A program made the translations under genes and the position numbers. DNA of 64,000 nucleotides. Source: Odoribacter sp. GTDB taxonomy: Bacteria > Bacteroidota > Bacteroidia > Bacteroidales > Prolixibacteraceae. The DNA is taken from positions 1 through 64,000 of the forward strand of contig PNOH01000017.1 in NCBI GenBank assembly GCA_013824715.1. Direction: 5' to 3'. The notes beneath the pieces are model-generated. The model made no database searches. It was not told the DNA's origin and worked only from the letters and a program-made list of their open reading frames with translations. Below, one piece after another: positions 44,306-64,000 of this stretch (the stretch's first letter is position 1; each line of letters opens with the position of its first letter).

Positions 44306-47191
44306 CTATTTGATTTTATTTTTTGTTTTTGTAAAAAGGTCAGCCGTATATTTTTCGTAGAGTTCAAATAAAAACACCATTCGGTTCGCTTCGCTTGTAA
44401 ATGGTTGTGAACGGTAAGCCAGGTCAACTGCTTTGTCAAGTTCGTTGTGTGCTTTTACCATTGCAGGTGGCATGGTCAAAGAATTGTACAAATCCGCAAG
44501 GGAACAAGCTCCCTTATTTTGAAATGTTGCCCTGGTTTCCAATACTTTTTGTGCCTTTTCTTCGATGATTTTGATTTGTTTGTCAGTTGGATTTTCAGGA
44601 AATGGAAAGTTATTATAAACAATACTTGCTGAATATTGATAATCGCTTTTCATTCTTCCACAAGTAGTTTTCATCCAACACATGTGGATTATTGATGACA
44701 TTATGCCAAACATATACAAGTTTGCATTTGGAATAATTAAAGCACTGCCGCTAGTAATAGTTGAAGGTTCTAAAATGCCGACAGGAATATATCTCCTGTT
44801 TTCGGATGATACTTTTGGAATGATAATGTAATTTGTAACCGGCTGTCTTATCTCACCGAAAAGCATAGGCTTTTCAGCCAACTTTCTTGTTGCTTCCCTA
44901 TTGCTTCCTAATCGAAATATCCTTGTTTTTTCAATTCTGTCAAGTATGAAACTTGATTTATTTAGCAAATCCGGTTCAATATCTTGTAGCCATAAACACC
45001 AGCGTTTTTTATTATTTATAAATTCATCGCCACCAGTATAATGCTTAATTGCAACATCAATAAAAGGTTCTTTCTGCAAAGCAAGTTCCTTTTCGTCATC
45101 TGTTAAAATTAAATGTCCGTCGTCAATTGGCATACTGCCATAATTCATCTCAGGAACTTTACAAATTGGTGATTTTCTATTCTCCACCGTTATGTCTTTC
45201 CCTTCAACTAAAAATGGATTGATGTTTTTAACTTTAATTTCGTGCGGTTCACCTTTAATGTCTTCGTATTCATAAATTTTTTTGTTATTCGTGTCGTAAT
45301 TGGAAAAGCCGATAATAACACAATGAACAGCAGCCTTCCCCCGGGCTTCGTTGCTCCATCTAAAAGTTCTGTGGGCAAAGTGAATCTTTATTTTGTACAG
45401 ATTAAAAAGTATATTCCAAAGTATTCCAACTTGCTCACCTTGCGAAATGGAGTTAGTTGAAACAAATGCGCCCTTTGTTTGGGTGTTTTGAATAATTTGT
45501 GCTGTTTTTATGTACCAGCAGGTCACATAATCTAAAACGCCTGTTCCTTTTATTCCTTTAAAAACCAACTCTAAATCGGCTTTTTGAGCAATGTTTTGTT
45601 CTTTCTTACCGATAAAAGGCGGGTTTCCCATAATATAATCGAAAGTGTTTTTAACCTCATACAATATTGGTTGAACATTACGTTCGTCAATTATGGTTAG
45701 ATTTTCTGTTTTGATATTTACATTTCTGTAATTAGCCTGAGGTTCATTTAAAATTACAGTTGTGTTTTTTGCATGTAAATCAATTGATTCATCTGTAATC
45801 AAATTTTTCCAGTCAATTTGCAATGCGTTACCATGGACAATCTTTGGCGCCTTTTTTAGTGGTAAACGAACAAAGTATTGCCCAAACTCGTTGCTGATTT
45901 GCAAGTTCATTTGGTGATCAATTAACCACATTGCAACTTCTGCTATTCGAGCCGGAAATTCTTCGGATTCAATGCCATACATCATATCAACATCAAGCCA
46001 AATAATATCCTGAACATTTAAAACCATTTGTCCGGTTTTATTCAGAGCCCTTAAAATTTCAAGTTCCAACAAACGTAATTCACGGTAAGTAATAACAAGG
46101 AAATTTCCGCAGCCACAGGCTGGGTCAAGGAATTTGAGCTTACTTATTCTTTTATGAAATTCGGTGAGTTTATTTTTGTTGTCTTTGATGCTTTCAAATT
46201 CCTTCCAAAGTTCATCCAGAAAAAGTGGTTTGATGAGTTTCAAGATGTTGGTTTCGCTGGTGTAATGTGCGCCAAGGTTTCTGCGTTCTTTTGGGTTCAT
46301 TACACTTTGAAACATGGAACCAAAAATGGCGGGCGAAATCTTCGTCCAGTCCGTGTAACAACAGTCTAACAAAGCCTGCCGCATTTTGCTGTCGAAACTT
46401 GCAGTTGGCAATATTTCTTCAAAAAGCTTCCCGTTTACATACGGAAAGTCGGCAAGTTGTTCGTCGAGGTTTTTAAAGCGGTTTTCATTAGCCGTGTTCA
46501 ATACCTGAAAAAGTTCCTGTAACCTGGCCGCAAGGTCGCTACCGTCCTCACTGGTACGCTGTTCAATATAGTCCTGGAATTGTTGTTTCTCAAAAATGGT
46601 AGTGTCTTCGGCAAATAAACAGAAAAGTATGCGTACAAGGTAAACTTCCAATGGGTGCCCTTCATAACCAATTTCTTTCAACCGGTCGTGAAGTTTACCC
46701 ATTAACTCCGCTGCTTTAATGTTAGCAGGGTCTTGCTCTTTGTAAACCTTTTTTTGATACCCTAAAAGATAACTGAAAAGACGAACGTTTTTTACTAATT
46801 CATTCAGTTTAAACTCTTCAGTTTTATTGTCTTCAAGGTCATAAAGCCTGAAATTCTCAAAATCAGAAATAAGAATGTATTTCGGTAATTCGTGTTGTTT
46901 TAGTCCGTAGGTATAATCAATTGCTTGCTGGTAGGCTTTATCAAGATTTTTGCCCCGGCTTTTCATTTCAACTAAGATCGTGCCTTTCCAAAGCAGATCA
47001 ATGTAACCATCTTTTTCGTCAAGCTTTTTGATCCGATGTTCAAACGTCGAAACCCGTTTACGGCTGATTCCAAACACGTTAAAAAATTCAACCAAAAATG
47101 GTTTTGCATCTGCTTCTTCGTTTGATGTGCCTGCCCATTCTTTTGAAAAAGTTACTGCGCGTTCCTTTATTTCATTCCAGCTTAAGGCCAT
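44306..47191 (-). CDS. Type IIL (MmeI-like) restriction-modification enzyme
   Basis: A 961-residue single-chain restriction and methylation protein. N-terminal PD-(D/E)XK nuclease: GYIDLLWKGTILVEMKSRG (Asp, then E-x-K, about 78-96). Then a helical spacer; a gamma-type N6-adenine methyltransferase with motif I FLDPACGCGNFL (about 360) and motif IV NPPF (about 524); C-terminal target recognition and helical domains. One such gene alone both cuts and protects DNA; the target sequence cannot be read from it. It lies among carbohydrate genes with which it has no functional link, suggesting horizontal insertion. Codons look more AT-rich than neighbouring GH genes. Confidence 0.88.
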   Translation of the reverse strand: MALSWNEIKERAVTFSKEWAGTSNEEADAKPFLVEFFNVFGISRKRVSTFEHRIKKLDEKDGYIDLLWKGTILVEMKSRGKNLDKAYQQAIDYTYGLKQHELPKYILISDFENFRLYDLEDNKTEEFKLNELVKNVRLFSYLLGYQKKVYKEQDPANIKAAELMGKLHDRLKEIGYEGHPLEVYLVRILFCLFAEDTTIFEKQQFQDYIEQRTSEDGSDLAARLQELFQVLNTANENRFKNLDEQLADFPYVNGKLFEEILPTASFDSKMRQALLDCCYTDWTKISPAIFGSMFQSVMNPKERRNLGAHYTSETNILKLIKPLFLDELWKEFESIKDNKNKLTEFHKRISKLKFLDPACGCGNFLVITYRELRLLELEILRALNKTGQMVLNVQDIIWLDVDMMYGIESEEFPARIAEVAMWLIDHQMNLQISNEFGQYFVRLPLKKAPKIVHGNALQIDWKNLITDESIDLHAKNTTVILNEPQANYRNVNIKTENLTIIDERNVQPILYEVKNTFDYIMGNPPFIGKKEQNIAQKADLELVFKGIKGTGVLDYVTCWYIKTAQIIQNTQTKGAFVSTNSISQGEQVGILWNILFNLYKIKIHFAHRTFRWSNEARGKAAVHCVIIGFSNYDTNNKKIYEYEDIKGEPHEIKVKNINPFLVEGKDITVENRKSPICKVPEMNYGSMPIDDGHLILTDDEKELALQKEPFIDVAIKHYTGGDEFINNKKRWCLWLQDIEPDLLNKSSFILDRIEKTRIFRLGSNREATRKLAEKPMLFGEIRQPVTNYIIIPKVSSENRRYIPVGILEPSTITSGSALIIPNANLYMFGIMSSIIHMCWMKTTCGRMKSDYQYSASIVYNNFPFPENPTDKQIKIIEEKAQKVLETRATFQNKGACSLADLYNSLTMPPAMVKAHNELDKAVDLAYRSQPFTSEANRMVFLFELYEKYTADLFTKTKNKIK

Positions 47192-51865: not shown

Positions 51866-53770
51866 TTAGTATTTAATCAATTTAATGGTTTGTGTATGGC
51901 TGTTTGTTATGAGTTTGATGATGTAAAAGCTAACCGGATATCTGTCCAAATCTATTTCGATGCTATGATTTCCGGCATCAAATATGGTGTTGCTGATTGT
52001 CTTCATCAATTGTCCATTTGACTTGTTAATAGTAATGTCAACCGGGCTTTTTTCAGGAAGGGTAAAATCTAGGTTAACCTGATCGGTTGCCGGATTGGGA
52101 TATATTTTTGCTTTAAATCTGCCATTCTGTAATTTGGTTTCTGCTGATGTTGGTGCGGCTTTAAGAATGATGCTGTTGACTGAAAGTGGCGCCAGCTCGA
52201 CATTAATTTGGTTCAATGCTGCGGTTACTTCGGTTTTAATCAGGGCATTTTTAGTATGCGAAGTAAAAGTTTCGGTTGTTGTCAGATTTGAAAGTGAGTA
52301 CATACTGTAAGTGCGGTTTTGCAGAAGATATCCGGCGAAATTCAGGTTTACGGTACTCTTTGCTGTCTGAGACCGGTTTACAAGCACAACGGTCATCGAA
52401 TCGGCGGTTTCGTTAACTGTTGGGTAGGCCGAAATCAACACTTCATTTTGTGAAGCGGCCTGCACAAAGTTTTCCTGATTGTAGCGGCTGAACAAGTGAA
52501 GCGCTTCCCACATTCCAACTTTCCAACTCCAGGGGGTGAATATTGCCACACCTTGTTTCATAAATTCACCCATCGTTGAAGCATACCAAATGGCCTGTAC
52601 GTTTGGATTTGTCGAACCGATGTCTGTTTCGGTAACTCCGAAAGTAACTCCGTGATTAGCTCCTTTGTACTTAACCAGCCAATCGGAGCAGCGGCCCAAA
52701 ATATATTCCTTGTTGATGCTGGTATCCCATCCTCCATTAACGGTACGCACTCCATTGGCTCCCGGATAAACGTAGTTCCGGTCGAAATAAACCCGGTGCA
52801 ATTGAACGCAATTGGTGGCATCGGTTTCACCCGGATAAAAATGGATGTCGAGAACATCAAGCAATTTTATTCCTGAAGCTTTTTCTTCTTCGGCGATCCG
52901 CTTGATGAAAAACTCAAGCCATGGTTTACCTCCTGTAGTGCTTCCATCTCCCCAACGGTACCATTGCCATTCGTTGGCAGGCACTGGTCCAACGAGTTTG
53001 ATGTCGGGAAATTTAGCGCGGGCAGCCTTGGCAACCTTAAAATACAATTGCATAAATTCTTCGGCGGTACATTGGGTTTTCATTACATCATCGTGCGTTC
53101 CCGACCAGATTTCAGGCTCATTGTCCATGTTCCAATAGCGGATATTAGTTTTGTCGTAACCCAGTCCTTTCGGGCCAAACCACTTATCCAGAATGCTAAC
53201 GGTTGAATCAGCCGGCCAGTCCAACAGGTATAAGTTTGGATTGCCTTCAACCAATGCTTTGCTTCCCCCGGCAGTATTGACTTGTCCGCCGCCGGCCAGG
53301 TTTTGATTTACACCTGTCCACCATTTTGAACTGTTGTAAGCCCAATCGTTGAAATTATTTTTAGTATTTGCAGCAGTCTTTCCCAGCAACTGAAACGACC
53401 ACATACCCTGTACTCCCGGCATTTTATCCATCAAGTTTTTGGCCGCTGTATCCCAGTCGTTCAGGTAAACATTGTTATACCAGTCGGGGTGGCTTGAAAG
53501 TCTGTTTCTCCAATTATATTTGGTGCTGTTATTACCTCCGCCTTGCCTGACGAAACGCACTCCGGCTTCCTTTGCCCTGGTGATTTCGGCTGTTGTGCCT
53601 GAACTTAAATAGGTACTTTGCAGAACATTATTTTTACCATATATGAAAGGCGAAACCGGTTTTTGGCCTTTGGTCAGGTCAATATCAATGCGCACCGGAG
53701 TTTGTGCGATTCCTGTGTTTCCTGCAGTCAGGAGCAGAACTAATATTCTAATTACCGAAGTGAGCTTCAT
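51866..53770 (-). CDS. T9SS-secreted GH44 endoglucanase/xyloglucanase
   Basis: A 634-residue protein. Signal peptide (about 1-22). GH44 domain (about 25-540): TIM barrel with acid/base Glu in YWNMDNEPEIW (about 218) and nucleophile Glu in VTETDIGS (about 381), followed by the beta-sandwich typical of the family. T9SS sorting domain (about 555-634, KIYPNPATDQVNLDF). GH44 enzymes hydrolyse beta-1,4-glucan, xyloglucan and some mannan. It starts 3 bp after the stop of the upstream GH5 gene, so it is transcribed with it. Confidence 0.88.
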   Translation of the reverse strand: MKLTSVIRILVLLLTAGNTGIAQTPVRIDIDLTKGQKPVSPFIYGKNNVLQSTYLSSGTTAEITRAKEAGVRFVRQGGGNNSTKYNWRNRLSSHPDWYNNVYLNDWDTAAKNLMDKMPGVQGMWSFQLLGKTAANTKNNFNDWAYNSSKWWTGVNQNLAGGGQVNTAGGSKALVEGNPNLYLLDWPADSTVSILDKWFGPKGLGYDKTNIRYWNMDNEPEIWSGTHDDVMKTQCTAEEFMQLYFKVAKAARAKFPDIKLVGPVPANEWQWYRWGDGSTTGGKPWLEFFIKRIAEEEKASGIKLLDVLDIHFYPGETDATNCVQLHRVYFDRNYVYPGANGVRTVNGGWDTSINKEYILGRCSDWLVKYKGANHGVTFGVTETDIGSTNPNVQAIWYASTMGEFMKQGVAIFTPWSWKVGMWEALHLFSRYNQENFVQAASQNEVLISAYPTVNETADSMTVVLVNRSQTAKSTVNLNFAGYLLQNRTYSMYSLSNLTTTETFTSHTKNALIKTEVTAALNQINVELAPLSVNSIILKAAPTSAETKLQNGRFKAKIYPNPATDQVNLDFTLPEKSPVDITINKSNGQLMKTISNTIFDAGNHSIEIDLDRYPVSFYIIKLITNSHTQTIKLIKY

Positions 53771-53773
53771 ACT

Positions 53774-55774
53774 TTATTGAATGACGATTTTTTGACTGAA
53801 TTTTTGATCTCCTGAAATTACCTGAACGATATATATGCCGGAGCGAATATCCTGGGTTGAAATTTTGAAATTGAGTTCAGGATTCCTGACTATTTTAACT
53901 ACTGAACCAAGAATATTATAAATGGTACAAGTTTCAACAGGTTTATCCACGTTGGAATTTATGATCCACTCCTGTCCGGTTTGCATGATGGTGATTGGAT
54001 TTTCTGAAAGGATAGCCTGATTTCCAACCGGAATGATTCTTTGAAATTCCAGATAATCAATGTAAAACAATGGTTTGTCGATAAATGTCAGCCGCATAAT
54101 TTGAGTGCCGGTCTCCAGGTCCATTGAAAAACTGACCGTTTTGGTATTCACCCAACTGTAGGTGGTTGGAGCTTTAATAATTTCTGATTCAACGGCACCA
54201 ATTTTAACTCTAAAAGTTCCTTCACCAGCAAATGCCGCAATGCTGGCACTTATATCGTACGTTCCTTTTCTGGCTACATTGACGGTGTATTCGAGCCATT
54301 CACCGGGATAATTGTCTATCACAAAATACTTTTCGTTTCCCAGGTTATAAATGTCAACGGGCTCGTTTGGCCTAAGGGCGCCGGAAATGTTTTTCAGGTC
54401 GGAGTCATGGTAGGTCAGGCCTTCTTCGCCGATATCAAAATATTCGGCTTCAATCCTTCCGGGTATTTCGAGTGCCTTTCCAGTGAATAGTTCCCTTAAT
54501 ACCGGTGGTTTTGGGACATAAGTTGGCAGAAGAATCTTTTGAGGATATGAAAACAAGTCAAGACCGTTGTTGTAATGTGCAATTACCCGGTAAAAATATT
54601 CCTTGTTTTGGGGAAGGTTGAAATCACTGTATGAAATAGCATCACCTTTATAAGATGCAATTCTTTTAAAAGTTGTGGATGAAAGCCGCCGTTCAACATA
54701 TATGCTGTCGTAATCAGTTGCCTGATTAGTCCAGAAAAGCTTTACGATGGTATCCTGAAAGATGGACAACCTGGGCATTTTAGGCGAAAGTTCTGAGGAA
54801 TGGGTCAATATGTCTTTGATGTCATCGTCCCAGGTTCTTGCTGAACGGTTCATGATACGGAAATCGCCGCCATCGTCCCAGGCACACGAGGAGAATCCGA
54901 AACTGTGCGACAATTCCACGTAAGTTTTATAGTGCTTCATCCGCGAATTGTAATCGCATTTTTTTATCGAGCCAAATTCTCCGAGGAAAACCGGAATGTC
55001 ATTCTTAATTGACCAATCTTTAACGGTCTGAAATTTCGATTTTAGTGCGTTGATGTCGGAAAAGCTGCCCCAGATTCCCTGTCCTAGCAGGCCAAACGTA
55101 TAAGGGTCGTAGGAGTGAAAGGAACCGATGATGTATTTGTCGTTTGGTATGGCTGCTCCAAGCAGGCCATCGGAGCCGCCCCAATTGATACCCTGAAAAA
55201 TAACCAGCCGGGTAGGATTGGATTTACGGATAATGGACAGGATGCGCTGGTGAACATCGTCGGATTGGGCTTTGGTCATTTCAACCGGTTCGTTCATAAC
55301 CTCGAAGATTAACCTGTCGGGTTTATTTTTAAACTTTGTTGCCACCTGGCTCCAGATACTATCAAACCTGGCCCGGTTGACGGCGCTGGTATAACCGGTT
55401 TTGATCCAGTCGTCGTGATGTGAGTTGACTACGATGTAAAGTCCTTTCGATAGTCCCCAGTCGAGGATTTGTTCAACCCGTGTGAACCAGGTTTCATCAA
55501 TTTTATATGGAGAAGTAGTTCCGGTGTGTTTATCCCATCTTACCGGAATCCGGATGCAGTCGAATCCTTCTTTTTTGTACATATCGAACATGTACTCCTG
55601 AGTTGATGGGTTGCCCCATTCTCCTTCGCGGGGTGGTTCAAGGGTATTTCCCAGGTTAATGCCTTTCTTCATCTGGCTGATTGCATCTTTAGGGCTTAAC
55701 TGTGCCGAAACAAATGCTGGAATTGAAAATAGTAAAGTGAACAGGAAAAGGATTGGTTTTTTGTATTTGTACAT
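53774..55774 (-). CDS. T9SS-secreted GH5 endoglucanase (GH5_4-like) with CBM6-like module
   Basis: A 666-residue protein. Signal peptide (1-24). GH5 domain (about 28-340) with INLGNTLEPP, acid/base Glu in EVMNEPVEM (about 161), SFHSYDPYTF, and nucleophile Glu in LGEFGSI (about 266). A short fibronectin-like linker, a CBM6-like domain (about 445-575; IEAEYFDIGEEG) and a T9SS domain follow. Likely cuts beta-1,4-glucan, xyloglucan or mannan outside the cell. First gene of the GH5-GH44 unit; its promoter holds the 33-bp element shared with the 1321-residue protein gene. Confidence 0.9.
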   Translation of the reverse strand: MYKYKKPILFLFTLLFSIPAFVSAQLSPKDAISQMKKGINLGNTLEPPREGEWGNPSTQEYMFDMYKKEGFDCIRIPVRWDKHTGTTSPYKIDETWFTRVEQILDWGLSKGLYIVVNSHHDDWIKTGYTSAVNRARFDSIWSQVATKFKNKPDRLIFEVMNEPVEMTKAQSDDVHQRILSIIRKSNPTRLVIFQGINWGGSDGLLGAAIPNDKYIIGSFHSYDPYTFGLLGQGIWGSFSDINALKSKFQTVKDWSIKNDIPVFLGEFGSIKKCDYNSRMKHYKTYVELSHSFGFSSCAWDDGGDFRIMNRSARTWDDDIKDILTHSSELSPKMPRLSIFQDTIVKLFWTNQATDYDSIYVERRLSSTTFKRIASYKGDAISYSDFNLPQNKEYFYRVIAHYNNGLDLFSYPQKILLPTYVPKPPVLRELFTGKALEIPGRIEAEYFDIGEEGLTYHDSDLKNISGALRPNEPVDIYNLGNEKYFVIDNYPGEWLEYTVNVARKGTYDISASIAAFAGEGTFRVKIGAVESEIIKAPTTYSWVNTKTVSFSMDLETGTQIMRLTFIDKPLFYIDYLEFQRIIPVGNQAILSENPITIMQTGQEWIINSNVDKPVETCTIYNILGSVVKIVRNPELNFKISTQDIRSGIYIVQVISGDQKFSQKIVIQ

Positions 55775-55791
55775 ATTCAGGTTTTATCCTT

Positions 55792-55799
55792 CAAATTTA
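55792..55799 (-). promoter_or_regulatory. -7 promoter box TAAATTTG of the GH5 gene
   Basis: Minus-strand TAAATTTG matches TAnnTTTG and lies 17 bp upstream of the ATG. No -33 box at the expected place, as expected for an activator-dependent promoter. The shared element begins 37 bp further upstream. Confidence 0.6.
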
Positions 55800-55836
55800 C
55801 TTTCAAATTCGTGCAATGGCTATTTATAGCGGAAAG

Positions 55837-55869
55837 AAGAATGTAACGATTCCTTCAAGAGTGAAAGAA
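55837..55869 (-). promoter_or_regulatory. Shared 33-bp upstream element (copy 1)
   Basis: On the minus strand it reads TTCTTTCA, three or so free bases, TTGAA, then CGTTACATTCTT. It matches copy 2 (60316-60348) at 26 of 33 positions and stands at exactly the same distance (37 bp) from a TAnnTTTG box. The TTTCA/TGAAA part is an inverted repeat. Candidate activator site for the GH5-GH44 genes. Confidence 0.65.
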
Positions 55870-56225
55870 TTCGACCAATGAGCCGGATAATTAATGAGAT
55901 TCAGGTTCTATAACGGATGGGTTGGGCATTAAAATTTATCATTGCACAACTTCTAAAATCTGGGTTATGGCAAGATGAATTTTTTTGAACCCTTATTTGG
56001 AAGGGAAACCTGAGTAGTACTATGAGGTGAAAGAATATTTAACCTTATTCCCTAATTGAATTACAGATCGATTAATAAGGTTTGAAAAAAGGAGGATTAT
56101 GCTTTCTACAGAGGTTAATTAGATTAAAATAAGGTTTTTCTTAGCACGACATTTATTTCCTTTGCGTCAATAAAAATTCTTACCCACGCCAAACGTCATA
56201 GACCAAATTTCAGGATAAGACAAAA

Positions 56226-56255
56226 AAATAAGGGCCCGGTTAAAGGCCCTTATTT
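56226..56255 (-). terminator. Terminator of the 1321-residue protein gene
   Basis: An 11-bp perfect stem (AAATAAGGGCC with GGCCCTTATTT) around an 8-nt loop, followed on the minus strand by a T-rich stretch. It is 19 bp past the stop codon of the large lamin-tail gene. Confidence 0.85.
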
Positions 56256-56273
56256 ATCGAATCATTTAGTTGG

Positions 56274-59200
56274 TTATTGTTTTACAATCTTCTGGATATT
56301 GATGAATTTTTCTCCGGAAGAAATAACAAATACATAAATACCAGCGGGCTGAGCTGCAAGCGAAACGTATTCAGTTGCATTGTCAACGATCACATCGCGA
56401 AGAGTAAGGCCAACTGCATTAAATACCTGAACACGGTTACCAGCAGTAAGTCCGTTGATAACTACTCTGCCGGTAGTTGGATTTGGGTACATTTTGATAG
56501 ATTCCATGCCAGTGTCAATAAGTCCGGTAAAGAACTTAATTGAATAAAGTGCAGTAGTTACGCCATCGGCAGCAGTTACCAAAAGCTGATCGCCACTTGC
56601 AAGGGTAGTAAGTTTACTTGGCTTACCGGTTTTGTCGAGAACTTGTAAAGTAGCGCCAAATGAAGGATACAATTTATTTATAAATGTACCCATATCTGTA
56701 CCAGCGACCGGAGCAGTAATCAAACGTTTTACCTGGTCAATGGGGTAATCGTCAGAAATTACATAAGCCAGATATTTGTTTACATAGAAGTTAAGCATCG
56801 AGAAATAATATGCTTTGGTAACTTTACCATCAGCAGAAGTCACAATTAGCTTATCATCTTTGTAAATATCGCCTAAAGTTCGCTCAAAACCAGCTTTGTC
56901 GTAAACAACAACGGAAGCGCCTGCTGAAGGAGTAACATTGCTGATTAAACTCTTAACCGAAGTTCCACCAGGTACAAACTGGATCAAAGAAGCAAACTGA
57001 TCAATACTATAAACGTCAGATGTAATATATGCGTCGCTGGCATTAACATTAGGCTTCAACTGATACAGCACCTTGGTAGTGCCGTTTTCGGCAACCACTT
57101 CGAAGAAAACTTTGTCGGTTGCAATTACGTTCACATAAGCTGAGTCATAGTTCAGTTTGGTTAAGGTCATATATGCATCATTGGCATCAACCATGGTCAT
57201 GGTCGCGCCTGCTGGAACAATAACAGCGGCATAAACATTCTTAAGTAATTCTCTTTGTCTGATTCCGCTGATTGTACCGGTTGCACCAGTAACAGCAACC
57301 GTATATTTGGCTGAAGTCAGCAATGCATTTGAGCTTAATCCGTTAGCAGTAACATCAAGGATGTATTTGGATGTATTTACACTGTCGGCTGAAAGCACGA
57401 TCAAACTATCGCCTTTGGAAATGGCATCGGCAGCAGCCAATTTTTTGGTCCCGGATTTTACGGTCAAAGATTGCAGCGGATTAGCTTTCAGGATGTTTTG
57501 ATAGAAACCTGTTACAGTTGTTCCGGTAGTTAAACCTTTAATTGTTTCTTTCTTCGAATATCCGGGGCTAACCTTGTAAGCTTTGGAAGATACCGTTGAT
57601 TTGTAAATGGTTACTTCGTCCATCACATGCGAGCCAATTCCATCAATGATGGCAGTAATCTGCTGTGGCCAGCCATAGTTTAATTTCTGGAAATAAGCCC
57701 AGTCTCTCCAATACCATTCCGAATTCTCTTTGGTTGTTCCATAAATACCATTTTTGATTTCAGGATTTGGTTTATAGATATTGGGTTTTCTGTAATAACT
57801 TGTAATAGCAGCATGGTTACGGCCACCAAAGGAGAAGGCTCCACCAGTGTTGTTATTTCCCAACATTTCGAGCAGTTCAAAATCATTTCTGTTGGTCGCA
57901 GGTTTCAAACCGTTTACAACAGAATCGTTTAATATTTTATACATAAAAATATTTCCGCCCCAGCTTCCCTGCCATTGGTTAAGGATATTATTACCACCAA
58001 CCTTTACACCCCAGGGGTTGTTCCTGAAATCAATGTCAACTTCTTTGCGGTAAGCATCATAAACTTTGCCATAGCGGTTGAATGACAAATTATACATAAC
58101 GAACACATCACCCGGATATACAATGGCGTTGGTAGCCAAATCGGGAACCAGTACTCGCGGTGTAACCTGCCAGTTTGCTGCATCAACCCATTTTTTGCCG
58201 GGAACATATTTCAGGTAAGCATTACCATATTCTGTAGGGCCGTTGTTCCAGTTCCAGCTTCCGTCTTCAGGTCCCCAAGCAAAAACAAACATGTAATGGC
58301 TAAGGTCCAAAGGTTCGGTTCCGGGGTTAACAATTTCCATCCAGTCATTGGCCCAATCGTCCTTATAAACCCACTGCGAAATAAATGGTTCGCCTTTCCA
58401 TGGTTGCACGTAATCCGGGTTTTTTTCTTTTTCGAACCTAACGGTATAAACTGATTTTGTTATACCATCTTCAGCAACAACAGTGAAAGTAACCGTACGT
58501 TCTTCCGGTGTTCCGCTGTAGGTGGTAGCACGTTTAACCGTAACTTTGGAGTCGAGTTGCTGTTTGGTGTATGCCAATGCAGGTATTCCATCGTAATCGG
58601 CCGGAACTTTTACCACATAGTTTAAATTCGACGGATTGAATCCAGGTATGGTATCGCCTGCCCATCCGTAAGATTCTGCAACATCGCCTTTGAACCAGTT
58701 TGGGATATCAGGCCAGGTAATTGAACCTAAATATGAATTTGATTCAGGATAGAATTTGAAAAGTTTAATGGAATAGTCTTTTACTTTTCCGCTTTCAGAA
58801 GTCACCCGAAGGATATCTCCTGTCTGAAGATCAGGACGATCGACACCACCTTTTGGTACAATTTTCCAACTGGCTTTCGGCGCTTTTTCCAAATATCTTA
58901 ACATGGTGTCAACACGTGTGGCAAAATCCAAACCACGAATGGTGTCCATACCGGGCACTTTATCAGTTACTTCCAGACCAAGCCGTCCCCATCCTGAATT
59001 ATAGGCATTCATCCAAACAGGATCATATCTCATATTGGTCCAGTCAAACCCGTTTTTGGGCATAACAATGTTGTCGTCAGCAGTTGGAGGAAGCACATCT
59101 AGGGCAAATTTCTTAATTTCAGGCTTGGCGCCGCAAATGTAAAGGGTAAGTGTGTCGCCTTTGGTAACCGAAATGGTAGCAGAGTCTTCCTGTGAAGCTG

Positions 59201-60239
59201 CAGATAAGGAGTACTTCCAGGCCAAAGCAGGTTTCTTTTTGAATTGGTACATTAACGAGTCGTATCCACGTACTCCCCAGGGAACTGTAATGGTCATTTT
59301 TGCAAGGTCAACTTTTACTTTACCGGTTTTTGATTCCAACAGGTTGGCATCCAGTTTCTGATCAGAATGGTTTCCGGCAGTCCAGTAAACGCCCTTCCAG
59401 GGTTCATCTCCACCCTGATTAGGAACAGGGATCCATTCGGAGTCGTTCAGGTCAATACCTTTGGCCTGGTTGAACTGAAGATTGGCAGCAGCTATGTTGG
59501 CATCGTGACTGGAAAAATCACTTATACCTTGTTTTACTGAGAATTTACGGATTAAGGTGGCGAACTTGGTTGCCTGAGTAACCCCGGCCACATCATAACC
59601 TCTGTCGTTTTCCTGTGAGTTAGTACCATCAGCTTCATCAAAATTCCCGTTGAACTGGTCAATGATCATGGAGTCTTTGGCTCCCTGAGCATTGCGGAAG
59701 TGATGACGAAGAAACATGCAATTGTATCCATGCCACGCATCTAAAAGATTCCAGTTAGGAGTTATGCTGTCGCTAGCATTAGAGTTTCTTTCGGCACGGT
59801 GCAAAACCAAATCGGCAAGCTTCCAGAACTCTTTCTTGGTTGATCTTTGCTGCCAGTGAAGCGGGTCTATAGCCCACATTTCTTCTTCAAACTCCGAACC
59901 AATTGCAATCAGAAATGATTTACCCGGGGCCAAATACCGTTTCTGTAATAATGGCGAATTTTTAGGGTACATCTTTGGATCATGCAATCTGAAATGGTCA
60001 GCAGGAAAAGTTAACCAGGTACCAGGAGCCGAAGGCCAGGGGGTAATTCTGCCAATTTCAAAATCAGCGAGGTCTATGGTTTCCGTTCCCATGTTAGTGA
60101 CCTCAATGTAATTATCAGGGGTTCCGCTAATACGGGCCTCCGTAATAATTAATTTGTTGTAAGGTTTTTGAGTTTGTGCGTTTAGCACTACACCACAACC
60201 AACAACTACCAGAAATAAAAGTAAAAGTTTTAATTTCAT
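56274..60239 (-). CDS. Large T9SS-exported lamin-tail multi-domain protein
   Basis: A 1321-residue protein with signal peptide (about 1-21). N-terminal lamin-tail domain (about 27-140; LIITEARISGTPDNYIEV) and a second lamin-tail-like region (about 620-770; DWMEIVNPGTEPLDLSHYM). Between and after them are repeated beta-sandwich modules with related endings: GDILRVTSESGKVKDYSIKL, GDSLIVLSADSVNTSKYIL, DDKLIVTSADGKVTKAYYF, GDQLLVTAADGVTTALYSI. A T9SS domain closes the chain (KMYPNPTTGRVVI). No catalytic motif. Probably a surface adhesin or polysaccharide-binding scaffold. It shares a promoter element with the GH5-GH44 unit, which supports a role in the same process. Confidence 0.8.
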   Translation of the reverse strand: MKLKLLLLFLVVVGCGVVLNAQTQKPYNKLIITEARISGTPDNYIEVTNMGTETIDLADFEIGRITPWPSAPGTWLTFPADHFRLHDPKMYPKNSPLLQKRYLAPGKSFLIAIGSEFEEEMWAIDPLHWQQRSTKKEFWKLADLVLHRAERNSNASDSITPNWNLLDAWHGYNCMFLRHHFRNAQGAKDSMIIDQFNGNFDEADGTNSQENDRGYDVAGVTQATKFATLIRKFSVKQGISDFSSHDANIAAANLQFNQAKGIDLNDSEWIPVPNQGGDEPWKGVYWTAGNHSDQKLDANLLESKTGKVKVDLAKMTITVPWGVRGYDSLMYQFKKKPALAWKYSLSAASQEDSATISVTKGDTLTLYICGAKPEIKKFALDVLPPTADDNIVMPKNGFDWTNMRYDPVWMNAYNSGWGRLGLEVTDKVPGMDTIRGLDFATRVDTMLRYLEKAPKASWKIVPKGGVDRPDLQTGDILRVTSESGKVKDYSIKLFKFYPESNSYLGSITWPDIPNWFKGDVAESYGWAGDTIPGFNPSNLNYVVKVPADYDGIPALAYTKQQLDSKVTVKRATTYSGTPEERTVTFTVVAEDGITKSVYTVRFEKEKNPDYVQPWKGEPFISQWVYKDDWANDWMEIVNPGTEPLDLSHYMFVFAWGPEDGSWNWNNGPTEYGNAYLKYVPGKKWVDAANWQVTPRVLVPDLATNAIVYPGDVFVMYNLSFNRYGKVYDAYRKEVDIDFRNNPWGVKVGGNNILNQWQGSWGGNIFMYKILNDSVVNGLKPATNRNDFELLEMLGNNNTGGAFSFGGRNHAAITSYYRKPNIYKPNPEIKNGIYGTTKENSEWYWRDWAYFQKLNYGWPQQITAIIDGIGSHVMDEVTIYKSTVSSKAYKVSPGYSKKETIKGLTTGTTVTGFYQNILKANPLQSLTVKSGTKKLAAADAISKGDSLIVLSADSVNTSKYILDVTANGLSSNALLTSAKYTVAVTGATGTISGIRQRELLKNVYAAVIVPAGATMTMVDANDAYMTLTKLNYDSAYVNVIATDKVFFEVVAENGTTKVLYQLKPNVNASDAYITSDVYSIDQFASLIQFVPGGTSVKSLISNVTPSAGASVVVYDKAGFERTLGDIYKDDKLIVTSADGKVTKAYYFSMLNFYVNKYLAYVISDDYPIDQVKRLITAPVAGTDMGTFINKLYPSFGATLQVLDKTGKPSKLTTLASGDQLLVTAADGVTTALYSIKFFTGLIDTGMESIKMYPNPTTGRVVINGLTAGNRVQVFNAVGLTLRDVIVDNATEYVSLAAQPAGIYVFVISSGEKFINIQKIVKQ

Positions 60240-60270
60240 AATGTCTGAATTTTAATTAAGTGGTTCTTTT

Positions 60271-60278
60271 CAAAATTA
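60271..60278 (-). promoter_or_regulatory. -7 promoter box TAATTTTG of the lamin-tail gene
   Basis: Minus-strand TAATTTTG matches TAnnTTTG and lies 31 bp upstream of the ATG; the shared element begins 37 bp further upstream, as at the GH5 gene. Confidence 0.6.
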
Positions 60279-60315
60279 CGTATTAAAAGCATGTTTCATT
60301 ATTTATTCGATGTGT

Positions 60316-60348
60316 AAGAATATAACGTATCTTTCAAATATGAAAGAA
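60316..60348 (-). promoter_or_regulatory. Shared 33-bp upstream element (copy 2)
   Basis: On the minus strand: TTCTTTCATATTTGAAAGA, an inverted repeat with 7-bp arms TCTTTCA/TGAAAGA, then ACGTTATATTCTT. 26 of 33 positions match copy 1. The regulator gene next to it is the obvious candidate to encode the binding protein. Confidence 0.65.
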
Positions 60349-60569
60349 ATCATACATGAGCAGGTAATTTTTATTGACAATTCTACATTTCGGAGAAAGA
60401 CACTCCTCTTTGGTTCTTAAAAAATGATGGTTTTTGTCATGTACTTCAGGATATTTTCTGGAGCGTATATTTCAAATTTTACCGAATTTATGAATTTTTG
60501 CAATACTTTTTATACCTTGAACCCCTGAAAAGATGGATGGCCTGACCTGGATTTAACCAACGAGCAACG

Positions 60570-63500
60570 ATGAAATTAACCTTAACTTGTATTTTATTTA
60601 TACTTATATCCGTCAAGTTTTGCTTTAGTGCCGATTTCAGGTATTTGAGAACAAATGAAGGCCTTTATAATGGAGAAATCAATTCCATTGCCCAGGATAA
60701 ATCAGGAAAGATGTGGTTCGCCACCTGGACGGGATTGGCCAGCTATAATGGTTACGATTTTCAGTTTTTTAAACCTGAACTTGGAAATCCTTTGAGCCTG
60801 ACTGATAAAAAGACAAACAAAATATTTATTGATTCGAAAGATAACCTTTGGGTAGCTTCCTTGTCAGGTATTTCTGTTTTTCGTAAAGAAAGCCAGACTT
60901 TTAATCCTGTAAGCCTTTCCGGACTTTCCTCCTACAACTTTTATGTTTTTGGTATTTATGAGACCAAAGGAAATGTATTGATTCATACCAATGCAGGAGT
61001 TTATCTGGTTTATTATAAGAATAATTCCAGTATTGATATACACACCAAGAGGCTGGACCTAATGTTTGGGAACGCTGTGACCGGTGAATATGTACATTAT
61101 ATGAATACCTATAACGACCGGTTGGTGCTGATATCAAATGCTGACATGTACAACCCGCATCGGATACTTCTCTGCGAATTGAACCTGGATGGGAAAGACA
61201 CCCTTTTGAGAATTCAAAACAGAGTTACATACCACCACCAAATTAATGCGACCGCTCATTTGAAGGATGACAATATTCTGTATTTGGGAACGACCGATGG
61301 AATTTCAATTTTATCATTAAGTCAGTTTTCAGTTTCCGAACCTGTCTATTTTAAAGGCCAGAATATTCAAAACCTTTATCTGGCAAGCGATCAAAAAATC
61401 TATTGCTATTCCACCAACCCATCATTGTTATTTGTTGACCTCAATACATCCCAAACTGGTCAGTACCTGCCCGATCCGCTTAAGATCGGTTCACTCCTTG
61501 ATAATAACATCATGTGTTTGTTCGAAGATTTTTCAGGAAATTTATGGGTTGGCCATCAGGGATTGGGATTAAGTATATTGAATTTGAACCGCAAGGCTTT
61601 TAATACCTTTAAACGCGACCCTTCCAATTCAAAATCGCTGAATGGGAATATTGTCATGTGTTTTAACGGAACTGATGATGAAATTTTTATAGGACTCCGA
61701 CAAGGAGGTATTAACCTTACCTCTAAAAAGATAGCTAAGGACGGATCTTCAGAATTCAAGATACTGGCTTATCGGCAAAACCCTGAACCAGTTTCGCTCT
61801 TCGATAATATATGGGACATTGCCCGCGAATCTGATTCCGTGTTTTGGGTGGCTTCTGATGGTGGTCTGGCCAAATTGAAAAAAACAGATCAGGGCTGGAG
61901 CTATGGTAGTCGTATTGAACAACCACTTTTTCAGGGCATAGTCAGAAAAATATTGGTTGATAAAGACCGTAATATCTGGTTTGGGACATCCAATGAAGGA
62001 CTCCGTTTTTATCCGGCATTACGAAAAAATCCTGACAAGAAGTTTTTTGTCTATCCCTTTGATCCGACGAATCCGGAAAGCCTATCAGACAAAACTATTT
62101 TATCTATGTATATCGACAGTAAAGATCGGTTTTGGGTTGGTACAAACAAAGGATTAAATCTTTTGAAATCCCCGTACGTCAATTTGGATTTGACGGGAAA
62201 AACAAAGCCGGATGTCAGATTCACCCGGTTTGTTGCCACCAGGCCCAGCAAAGATTTTCTGAGCGCCAACGAAATCAATTGCATCTATGAAAATTTGGAT
62301 GGAAAGCTATGGATTGCAACTCAGGGGGGTGGAATCAATATTATGGAGTCCGATTCGTTAAAGTTTTCGCATATTGATACTGAAAATGGATTATCAGGAA
62401 ATGATGTGCTTGGCATTCTTGCCGACCAGTCGGGAATAAAATGGATCAGTACCAACAAGGGAATTATGTCATTTGACCCTGACAATAAAACCAAACCATT
62501 TACCTATTACAGTCACACCGACGGCTTACAGGGAGAGACTTTCAAAGTGAATTCCTATTTTCAGTCGGCTGATGGAGAACTTTTTTTCGGGGGCGATAAC
62601 GGATTTACCCGGTTTTATCCCAATCAGATTAAATATAATCCGATTCCTCCACGAATTGGACTTACTTATCTCCGTATCCTGAATAAGGTAGTCAACATAG
62701 GAGAAAAGATAAGCAATGGGAATATGATGACCCGCACACTCAACGAGATGGATAAAATTGACTTGCCTTATTCGAAAAATACATTCAGTATCGGGGTAGG
62801 AATACATCATTATCAGCATCCTGAGGGAAACCAGATCCGGTATAAGCTCGATGGATTTAGTGATCGGTGGGTAACCATACCGGCTTTAATCCCGAATATT
62901 TATTTCTCGAAATTGCCATTCGGTAAATATACGCTTCGGATATCAGCGGTAAGTGCCGATAATATTGAATCAGAATCGGAAAGAACACTTGAAATCAGGA
63001 TTCTGCCTCCCTGGTACCAAACCTGGTACGTACGGTCTTTTATATTGCTGCTTCTGATTTCTTTGGTCGGATATTTTATATTCTGGCTGACGAAGCGGCA
63101 GCGGGTTTCTTTTCAGAAAAAGATTGATGCCATTTCGTTTGAAAACAACGAAAAGAAGATGAGGTTTTTGACAAACATTGCCCATGAACTCCGCACCCCG
63201 CTGAGCTTGGTAATTGCACCCATCGAAGACATGCAGCAGAATTATACCACCATTGATCCAAAGTGGAAAAATCACCTGAGACTGATCTATAGGAATTCAA
63301 ATTATCTGCTTACCCTTATAAATCAGATCATAGATTTCCGAAAGTTGAACGCGGGAAAATTGCAGTTAAACCGACAAACTGTTGATATTGTCGGATTGAT
63401 AAGGGAGGTCGTGGCTAATTTTAAAGGGCTTGAAAGCCGTAGAAAAACCAATCTTCACCTTATGACTCCTGATCAGGCAATCCTCGTTGATATTGACAGC

Positions 63501-64000
63501 CAGAAAATAGAAGAGGTTATGTATAACTTATTATCTAATGCCTTCAAACATACAAACGAAAACCATTCCATTGAAGTTTCACTCGAACTTTTAAACAGCC
63601 CTGATGGAAAAAAGCAGGTCAGGATAACTGTATTTAACGAAGGGAAAGATATTTCGGATGAAGATAAAGTCAAAATATTTGAACGTTTTTATAAGGTGAA
63701 CGAAAAGGTTGAGGGCGCCGGAATAGGCCTTTCATTCTCCAAATCGCTTATCGAAATGCATAACGGAACCATTTCGGTCGAGTCGGTTGATGGCGCCGGA
63801 GTGGCTTTCCATGTGGATTTACCTTTCGATCAGATTGAAGTAACTGATTCGCCAGCTAATATGGGTAATTCTGGTATGTGGTGGCACGAGGATGTTTATA
63901 ACAGGGAGCAGATGAACGAACTGGAGAATATAGGGAAAGAACTTACTATTGTAATAGTTGAAGACAATATTGATTTACGCACTTTCCTTAGAAGCACCTT
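60570..64000 (+). CDS. Hybrid two-component system sensor/regulator (HTCS), 3' end outside
   Basis: At least 1143 residues from ATG 60570; the frame runs off the right edge. Signal peptide (about 1-21), then two-bladed sensor domain of Reg_prop repeats (e.g. NSIAQDKSGKMWFATWTGLA), Y_Y_Y domain (about 740-815), TM (about 820-842), HisKA with phospho-acceptor in IAHELRTPLSLV (about 871), HATPase with GAGIGLSFSKSLIEMHNG, and the start of a receiver domain (LTIVIVEDNIDLRTFL). In known HTCS proteins an AraC-type DNA-binding domain follows the receiver. These sense oligosaccharides in the periplasm and switch on the neighbouring degradation locus, fitting the mannan/glucan genes here. Confidence 0.92.
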   Translation, partial: MKLTLTCILFILISVKFCFSADFRYLRTNEGLYNGEINSIAQDKSGKMWFATWTGLASYNGYDFQFFKPELGNPLSLTDKKTNKIFIDSKDNLWVASLSGISVFRKESQTFNPVSLSGLSSYNFYVFGIYETKGNVLIHTNAGVYLVYYKNNSSIDIHTKRLDLMFGNAVTGEYVHYMNTYNDRLVLISNADMYNPHRILLCELNLDGKDTLLRIQNRVTYHHQINATAHLKDDNILYLGTTDGISILSLSQFSVSEPVYFKGQNIQNLYLASDQKIYCYSTNPSLLFVDLNTSQTGQYLPDPLKIGSLLDNNIMCLFEDFSGNLWVGHQGLGLSILNLNRKAFNTFKRDPSNSKSLNGNIVMCFNGTDDEIFIGLRQGGINLTSKKIAKDGSSEFKILAYRQNPEPVSLFDNIWDIARESDSVFWVASDGGLAKLKKTDQGWSYGSRIEQPLFQGIVRKILVDKDRNIWFGTSNEGLRFYPALRKNPDKKFFVYPFDPTNPESLSDKTILSMYIDSKDRFWVGTNKGLNLLKSPYVNLDLTGKTKPDVRFTRFVATRPSKDFLSANEINCIYENLDGKLWIATQGGGINIMESDSLKFSHIDTENGLSGNDVLGILADQSGIKWISTNKGIMSFDPDNKTKPFTYYSHTDGLQGETFKVNSYFQSADGELFFGGDNGFTRFYPNQIKYNPIPPRIGLTYLRILNKVVNIGEKISNGNMMTRTLNEMDKIDLPYSKNTFSIGVGIHHYQHPEGNQIRYKLDGFSDRWVTIPALIPNIYFSKLPFGKYTLRISAVSADNIESESERTLEIRILPPWYQTWYVRSFILLLLISLVGYFIFWLTKRQRVSFQKKIDAISFENNEKKMRFLTNIAHELRTPLSLVIAPIEDMQQNYTTIDPKWKNHLRLIYRNSNYLLTLINQIIDFRKLNAGKLQLNRQTVDIVGLIREVVANFKGLESRRKTNLHLMTPDQAILVDIDSQKIEEVMYNLLSNAFKHTNENHSIEVSLELLNSPDGKKQVRITVFNEGKDISDEDKVKIFERFYKVNEKVEGAGIGLSFSKSLIEMHNGTISVESVDGAGVAFHVDLPFDQIEVTDSPANMGNSGMWWHEDVYNREQMNELENIGKELTIVIVEDNIDLRTFLRST

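Follow-up and report, generated by a model that had tools for sequence, protein, structure and literature searches.

Introduction

AraC-type proteins act as dimers on direct repeats of half-sites of about 17 bp, with a period of about 21, as at araI of Escherichia coli. For hybrid two-component systems (HTCSs), Ravcheev et al. (2013, PMC3878776) studied 16 regulators of Bacteroides thetaiotaomicron and predicted operators made of direct repeats with a mean distance of 21 bp; as we interpret that report, SusC/SusD genes are usually among the HTCS targets. Fragments of the HTCSs BT4124 and BT4663 containing the receiver and DNA-binding domains bind promoters of susCD homologues in vitro (PMC11253607). 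Here we analyse a 64,000-nucleotide stretch of Odoribacter sp. (Prolixibacteraceae; contig PNOH01000017.1, positions 1 to 64,000), hereafter the window. In it, a 43-bp element precedes the promoters of two transcription units of a glycoside hydrolase locus, one for a lamin-tail domain (LTD) protein and the other for GH5 and GH44 enzymes. The likely role of this element, conserved at both promoters, is in our view that of an operator: the adjacent HTCS would bind it through a dimer of its AraC-type DNA-binding domain and activate the LTD and GH5-GH44 genes together.

Like araI, the proposed operator would present 17-bp half-sites on one strand, about two helical turns apart and upstream of the promoter; here the period is 20, the element lies further upstream of the promoter and the regulator would be membrane-bound. 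With the predicted B. thetaiotaomicron operators (PMC3878776) it shares the two-site direct repeat (20 bp here, mean 21 there), a variable spacer, the location in a polysaccharide locus that encodes the HTCS and the way of discovery, phylogenetic footprinting. It differs from them in belonging to Prolixibacteraceae and to another locus, in having strong sites confined to LTD and GH5-GH44 instead of SusC/SusD, and in a fixed distance to the -7 box that could be measured over five genera. The HTCS resembles BT4124 and BT4663 in its receiver, which includes the CHIP motif, and its AraC-type DNA-binding domain, whereas their targets are promoters of susCD homologues (PMC11253607).

The form of the element, that of an HTCS direct-repeat operator, is already known; what is new is this example, with its unusually well-fixed geometry and without a strong SusC/SusD site. 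Among the papers listed on HTCS motifs and start sites, on Prolixibacteraceae and on TAnnTTTG promoters with activators, none describes the element in its title or abstract opening. It offers a sequence-defined and testable predicted operator for an HTCS outside gut Bacteroides. Through it, an LTD protein of 1321 residues, so far uncharacterised, is linked with the GH5-GH44 unit and a single sensor, so that both the inducing glycan and the role of the LTD protein become testable.

A tandem element at a fixed distance from the promoter

The initial annotation had described a 33-bp element before two genes, each copy 37 bp from a TAnnTTTG box. On the minus strand, direct comparison of 55837-55869 with 60316-60348 gave identity at 26 of 33 positions, and exactly 37 bp separate each copy from its downstream box, as had been stated. 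The element is real and conserved, but its true extent is about 43 bp, as conservation reaches 10 bp further upstream. The features of the two promoters are as follows; the half-sites form a direct repeat of period 20 and their limits are our own reading.

55837..55879, minus strand: the 43-bp element b, before the GH5 gene; the 33 bp first described plus 10 conserved upstream bp
55861..55877, minus strand: half-site 1 of element b, 17 bp, TGGTTGATTTCTTTCAT type
55841..55857, minus strand: half-site 2 of element b, 17 bp, TGAAAGATTCGTTACAT type
55792..55799, minus strand: TAAATTTG, the -7 box for GH5-GH44, separated from element b by 37 bp; predicted transcription start near 55787
60316..60358, minus strand: the 43-bp element a, before the LTD gene
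60340..60356, minus strand: half-site 1 of element a
60320..60336, minus strand: half-site 2 of element a
60271..60278, minus strand: TAATTTTG, the -7 box for LTD, separated from element a by 37 bp; predicted transcription start near 60266

A pattern made of the 24 shared inner positions, with at most 3 mismatches allowed, matched twice in the window against 0.01 matches expected from shuffles. Over the 4.6-Mb host genome it returned the two window sites, with no control matches.

When the 43-bp element is compared with itself, the peak falls at an offset of 20. Of 2000 column permutations, 4 reached this peak in the LTD set and none did in the GH5 set or in the other-genus set. We read the element as a pair of 17-bp half-sites, TGGTTGATTTCTTTCAT and TGAAAGATTCGTTACAT, separated by 3 bases. 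This spacer is not conserved: in columns 19 to 21 of the genus the commonest base reaches 0.63, 0.58 and 0.42; in other genera columns 19 to 22 have values of 0.67, 0.33, 0.33 and 0.5. Columns 1, 10, 30, 31 and 40 also vary in the genus, while column 22 is conserved there. A direct repeat of about 21 bp on average, a non-conserved spacer and conservation upstream of the orthologues of the locus mark the HTCS direct-repeat operators of PMC3878776; the element shows these features, with a period of 20.

Two further features of the initial annotation were rejected as working parts. The inverted TTTCA/TGAAA core is present in the window and in the genus, where each pair of its arms is complementary at 75-100%, but the dyad is lost in other genera (0, 0.17 and 0.33 for three of the seven pairs), unlike the 20-bp direct repeat. 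ATAAATA does occupy the same place in both window spacers, but ATAAAT is found there in just 7 of 19 related sites.

The two transcription starts listed above follow from placing the box at -12 to -5, as in Flavobacterium (PMC9723704). On this placement the element would reach from about -92 to about -50, with leaders of about 13 and 27 bases. Since conserved intergenic blocks can be RNA, the block might be thought a leader, a riboswitch or a small RNA. However, it lies upstream of the -7 box by a fixed 37/38 bp and would consequently be outside the mRNA made from that promoter, which leaves an RNA-level element as a very remote prospect.

We propose that the HTCS would sense a glycan fragment in the periplasm and phosphorylate its own receiver domain. 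A dimer of its AraC-type DNA-binding domain would then dock at about -92 to -50, on the two same-strand 17-bp half-sites, which lie 20 bp, about two helical turns, apart. From this fixed distance the docked HTCS would help sigma-A RNA polymerase to start at a TAnnTTTG promoter without a recognisable -33 box, and the surface protein LTD would be switched on together with the enzymes GH5 and GH44.

Restriction to LTD and GH5 promoters within the genus

LTD protein matches were found in 12 of the 23 genomes of the genus. The element lies upstream of all 11 main LTD orthologues that have upstream sequence (the LTD gene of G007 is cut by a contig end) and upstream of 8 of 9 GH5 genes, the exception being that of G013. 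Partial LTD copies at G016:C56, G017:C315 and G022:C13 stand outside these counts.

Specificity was assessed with a 91-position profile covering element, spacer and box, with which the best 150 first-look candidates per genome were scored. Across the 23 genomes it gave 19 strong sites (E ≤ 2.5e-16), identical to the 19 sites used for building it. All of them precede LTD (11) or GH5 (8) genes and they are spread over 12 genomes; beyond them there is noise, starting at E 0.02. The initial annotation had proposed a genome-wide search and a look at orthologues as checks: the host genome holds two strong sites only, so the placement is not random, and the conservation upstream of orthologues in related genomes extends to 19 of 19 strong genus sites.

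A pattern search of the genus returned 20 matches in 13 of 23 genomes, with 1 match for the reversed control. Two matches, G009:C73 and G015:C424, were discarded as chance: each has 3 mismatches, lacks TAnnTTTG at 37/38 bp and stands before a different gene, and their profile E-values are 0.36 and 0.02. The 19th true site (G002, GH5) came from a separate search. An exact pattern with a 37/38-bp gap, run over 84,980 species genomes (the scan took in contigs of 3,000 bases or more; the window's own genome is possibly outside this set), gave 15 matches in 12 stretches, all from this genus.

All 19 genus sites share the TAnnTTTG -7 box of Bacteroidota sigma-A promoters (PMC9723704, PMC12632263), at 37 bp in 15 and at 38 bp in 4, with a chance of 0.0005 per position. 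They depart from such promoters at the -33 place, where TTG occurs at 1 of 19 sites; the absence of a -33 box, first noticed in the window, therefore holds for 18 of 19.

It could be argued that the two elements, being alike and in the same cluster, are leftovers of one duplicated promoter without common function. This is contradicted already by the comparison of LTD with GH5 promoters from different species: identity per 10 bp is 0.73-0.81 within the element and 0.74 at the box, against 0.27-0.34 upstream of the element and 0.37-0.53 in the spacer. These identities, like the repeat tests, were computed without the near-duplicates G010 (both sites) and G007b. As the element is also retained in six promoters of other genera, we give the duplication almost no credit.

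The adjacent HTCS as candidate regulator

The gene divergent to the LTD gene encodes the proposed regulator:

60570..64000, plus strand, continuing to 64736 of the contig: HTCS gene, 1388 residues

Its Pfam domains (Reg_prop, Y_Y_Y, HisKA, HATPase_c, Response_reg, HTH_18) are those of a one-protein HTCS with propeller, Y_Y_Y, HisKA, HATPase, receiver and AraC-type helix-turn-helix. The initial annotation had named it as the natural candidate. We regard it as the putative regulator of the element, well supported although not proven, because of its co-occurrence with the element, because site presence and absence follow the HTCS in other genera, and because of motif matches upstream of the HTCS gene itself.

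An HTCS orthologue (at least 64% identity) is present in 11 of the 12 genus genomes with the element and in none of the 11 without it, which have only HTCS paralogues of at most 38% identity. Among 120 genomes of the family, an HTCS relative (E 1e-200 or better) and an LTD protein (E 1e-150 or better) occur together in 18; 1 genome has the HTCS only, 14 the LTD only and 87 neither (Fisher p 7e-12, a value inflated by the relatedness of the genomes). A looser search of the 14 LTD-only genomes gave HTCS paralogues of at most 39% identity (best E 8.7e-163), with none in G139 and G141. In six genomes of other genera HTCS and LTD genes lie on separate contigs, which in G104 are 726 and 820 kb long. 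The recognition helices of the HTCS are nearly unchanged between genera (16 sequences), the first reading STTH or STTQ.

The element might instead be bound by another regulator, either an HTCS paralogue of the AraC type or an unlinked factor, with the adjacent HTCS running the SusC/SusD side only. Genomes of the genus do contain several HTCS paralogues, and in the stretches scanned no strong element precedes the SusC/SusD operon. However, the element tracks one HTCS orthologue, as the 11/12 and 0/11 counts indicate, the HTCS-LTD link holds where the two genes sit on different contigs, and 5 of the 8 other-genus genomes tested have motif matches before the HTCS gene itself. We therefore think another regulator improbable, and direct control by the adjacent HTCS the better account.

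Three of these HTCS-upstream matches, in G031, G104 and G074, are at a shared place (0, 5 and 2 of 1000 resamplings); those of G085 and G082 (3 and 4 of 1000) are elsewhere, and the G085 match enters the likely gene start. In G031, G104 and G074 (L121, L122 and L124) the match includes a TATGTTTG box and stops some 4 bp short of the likely start codon. This arrangement would fit autorepression and a nearly leaderless mRNA, and it bears on whether the HTCS, bound to its element, could be a repressor or have a dual role. Sequence does not show in which direction regulation goes, and the HTCS BT2391 has been reported as a repressor (PMC11253607). On the other side, the element sits upstream of the LTD and GH5 promoters at a fixed distance, with TTG absent at -33 in 18 of 19 sites, which is activator-like; also, the receiver has CHIP, part of a consensus (to which D-K also belongs) linked to phosphorylation-dependent DNA binding (PMC11253607). 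Repression or a dual role is in our view quite unlikely, and we keep to activation by the HTCS as the working proposal.

The HTCS orthologue of G016 (L056, G016:C52, 26480-30664) has one internal TAA though the element is retained there; it may be an assembly error or a recent loss.

Diverged repeats in other genera

Six LTD promoters from four other genera in which an HTCS relative is present keep a diverged form of the repeat, with TTTG 41/42 bp away, that is, the 37/38 bp of the genus plus 4. All six boxes read ATATTTG, the first T of TAnnTTTG being lost. The distance between predicted operator and promoter is thus kept within one bp across genera.

Scoring with the genus matrix covered about 260 bp upstream of the LTD genes. 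Best scores were 16.7 in G032, 8.6 in G082, -0.7 in G104, -1.4 in G074, -2.2 in G085a and -7.3 in G031, compared with -16.5 in G107, which also has an HTCS relative, and -26.8 or less in seven further loci (G023, G025, G043, two G085 and two G013 paralogues). In a leave-one-out analysis the six other-genus sites beat all 500 resamplings, the best position in G032 being displaced by one 20-bp period. The six-site set is not independent of the genus matrix, because it was chosen with it. A matrix built from these six sites alone ranks the two window elements first and second of the 64 kb (26.1 and 17.8; next 12.5), and none of 767,520 shuffled positions scored above 14.

In the ten evaluable LTD promoters of family genomes without an HTCS relative, where only distant paralogues occur (G129, G145, G113, G023, G081, G115, G069, G067, G025 and G070), no comparable site was found. 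The closest were G115, G069 and G113 (17, 22 and 26 of 500 resamplings), and in G070 482 of 500 resamplings reach its score. G129 and G145, with neither site nor HTCS relative, are congeneric with G032, which has both. G093, G100, G139 and G141, whose contigs end 63-109 bp upstream, and G062 were left out of this comparison; the count of ten also excludes G043, which belongs to another family, and the paralogues of G013 and G085, although these were scored.

The SusC/SusD operon and points against the proposed regulation

The SusC/SusD operon is the usual target of an HTCS. The regulon of LTD and GH5-GH44 put forward in the initial annotation stands insofar as both gene classes carry strong sites, but none was seen before the SusC/SusD operon of the same locus. 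Nine genomes share a block, some 45 bp long and nearly invariant at the DNA level, that spans the HTCS stop codon and reaches into the promoter region of FAS1:

L003:4717-4766, contig C17 about 64717-64766, just beyond the window: stop-codon block

On the reverse strand this block resembles the element, in the same register each time, at 2 to 127 of 1000 resamplings in 8 genomes. It may be a third, reversed HTCS site, though the resemblance is suggestive only. A TACATTTG box follows the block before FAS1 in 8 of 9 genomes, and TACCTTTG takes its place in G009. In other genera a match behind the HTCS gene was found in G104 (1 of 1000) and, weaker, in G074 (20 of 1000). The 20-bp repeat was not clear in the SusC promoters of five other-genus genomes, where offset 20 scores 0.36 and other offsets do as well.

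It is tempting to propose a split regulon, in which the HTCS would directly control only secreted surface proteins (LTD, GH5-GH44) through an operator phase-locked at 41/42 bp from TTTG, and SusC/SusD would be governed otherwise or by a reversed, weaker site. The geometry would then be kept over at least five genera though regulator and target genes are not always neighbours. We hold this as a tentative idea, somewhat doubtful as it stands.

Several observations weigh against activation of both units by the adjacent HTCS. In the genus stretches scanned, no strong site was found upstream of the FAS1-SusC-SusD operon, and the reverse-strand candidate there is as weak as its 2-127 of 1000 resamplings indicate. 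The element was not found before the GH5 gene of G013 or before its two extra LTD genes. G007 has the element and GH5, but an HTCS orthologue was not found in this fragmented assembly of 1070 contigs. In G107 an HTCS relative is present, yet the LTD promoter match is weak (7 of 500) and has no TTTG in place. A motif match upstream of the HTCS gene was not found in G032, G090 and G107, and the matches of G085 and G082 differ in place from the other three. Finally, the genomes are related, so the co-occurrence counts are not independent events.

Target genes and surrounding locus

The genes proposed as targets, and the GH44 gene, are:

53774..55774, minus strand: GH5 cellulase-family enzyme with CBM6 and a type IX secretion system (T9SS) sorting tail; target gene
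51866..53770, minus strand: GH44 enzyme, also with a T9SS tail; its gene follows that of GH5 after 3 bp
56274..60239, minus strand: LTD protein, 1321 residues, secreted; target gene

The GH5 and GH44 genes are probably in one operon. The 1321-residue protein matches the lamin-tail domain at 33.8 bits (cut-off 34.3) and the T9SS tail at 25.6 (cut-off 27), both below threshold. The layout GH26-SASA-GH5-GH44-GH5-LTD / HTCS-FAS1-SusC-SusD is largely conserved.

Fasciclin-domain proteins (two of the three scanned) are interleaved with the two SusC/SusD pairs of the locus (L003:4892-15099), of which the second pair was named by eye and from tblastn labels only. In G013:C55 (L090, 8916-13831) a second LTD gene, with 57% identity and without the element, adjoins a C-terminal HTCS remnant with an internal stop. 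The contig CAMDGL010000011.1 (L104), from a metagenome-assembled genome titled Chitinophaga pinensis, carries the locus of this genus, and its species label looks wrong. Inside the glycoside hydrolase cluster, the minus strand of the window at 44306-47191 encodes a 961-residue protein with an NPPF motif, which appears DNA-methylase-like by eye.

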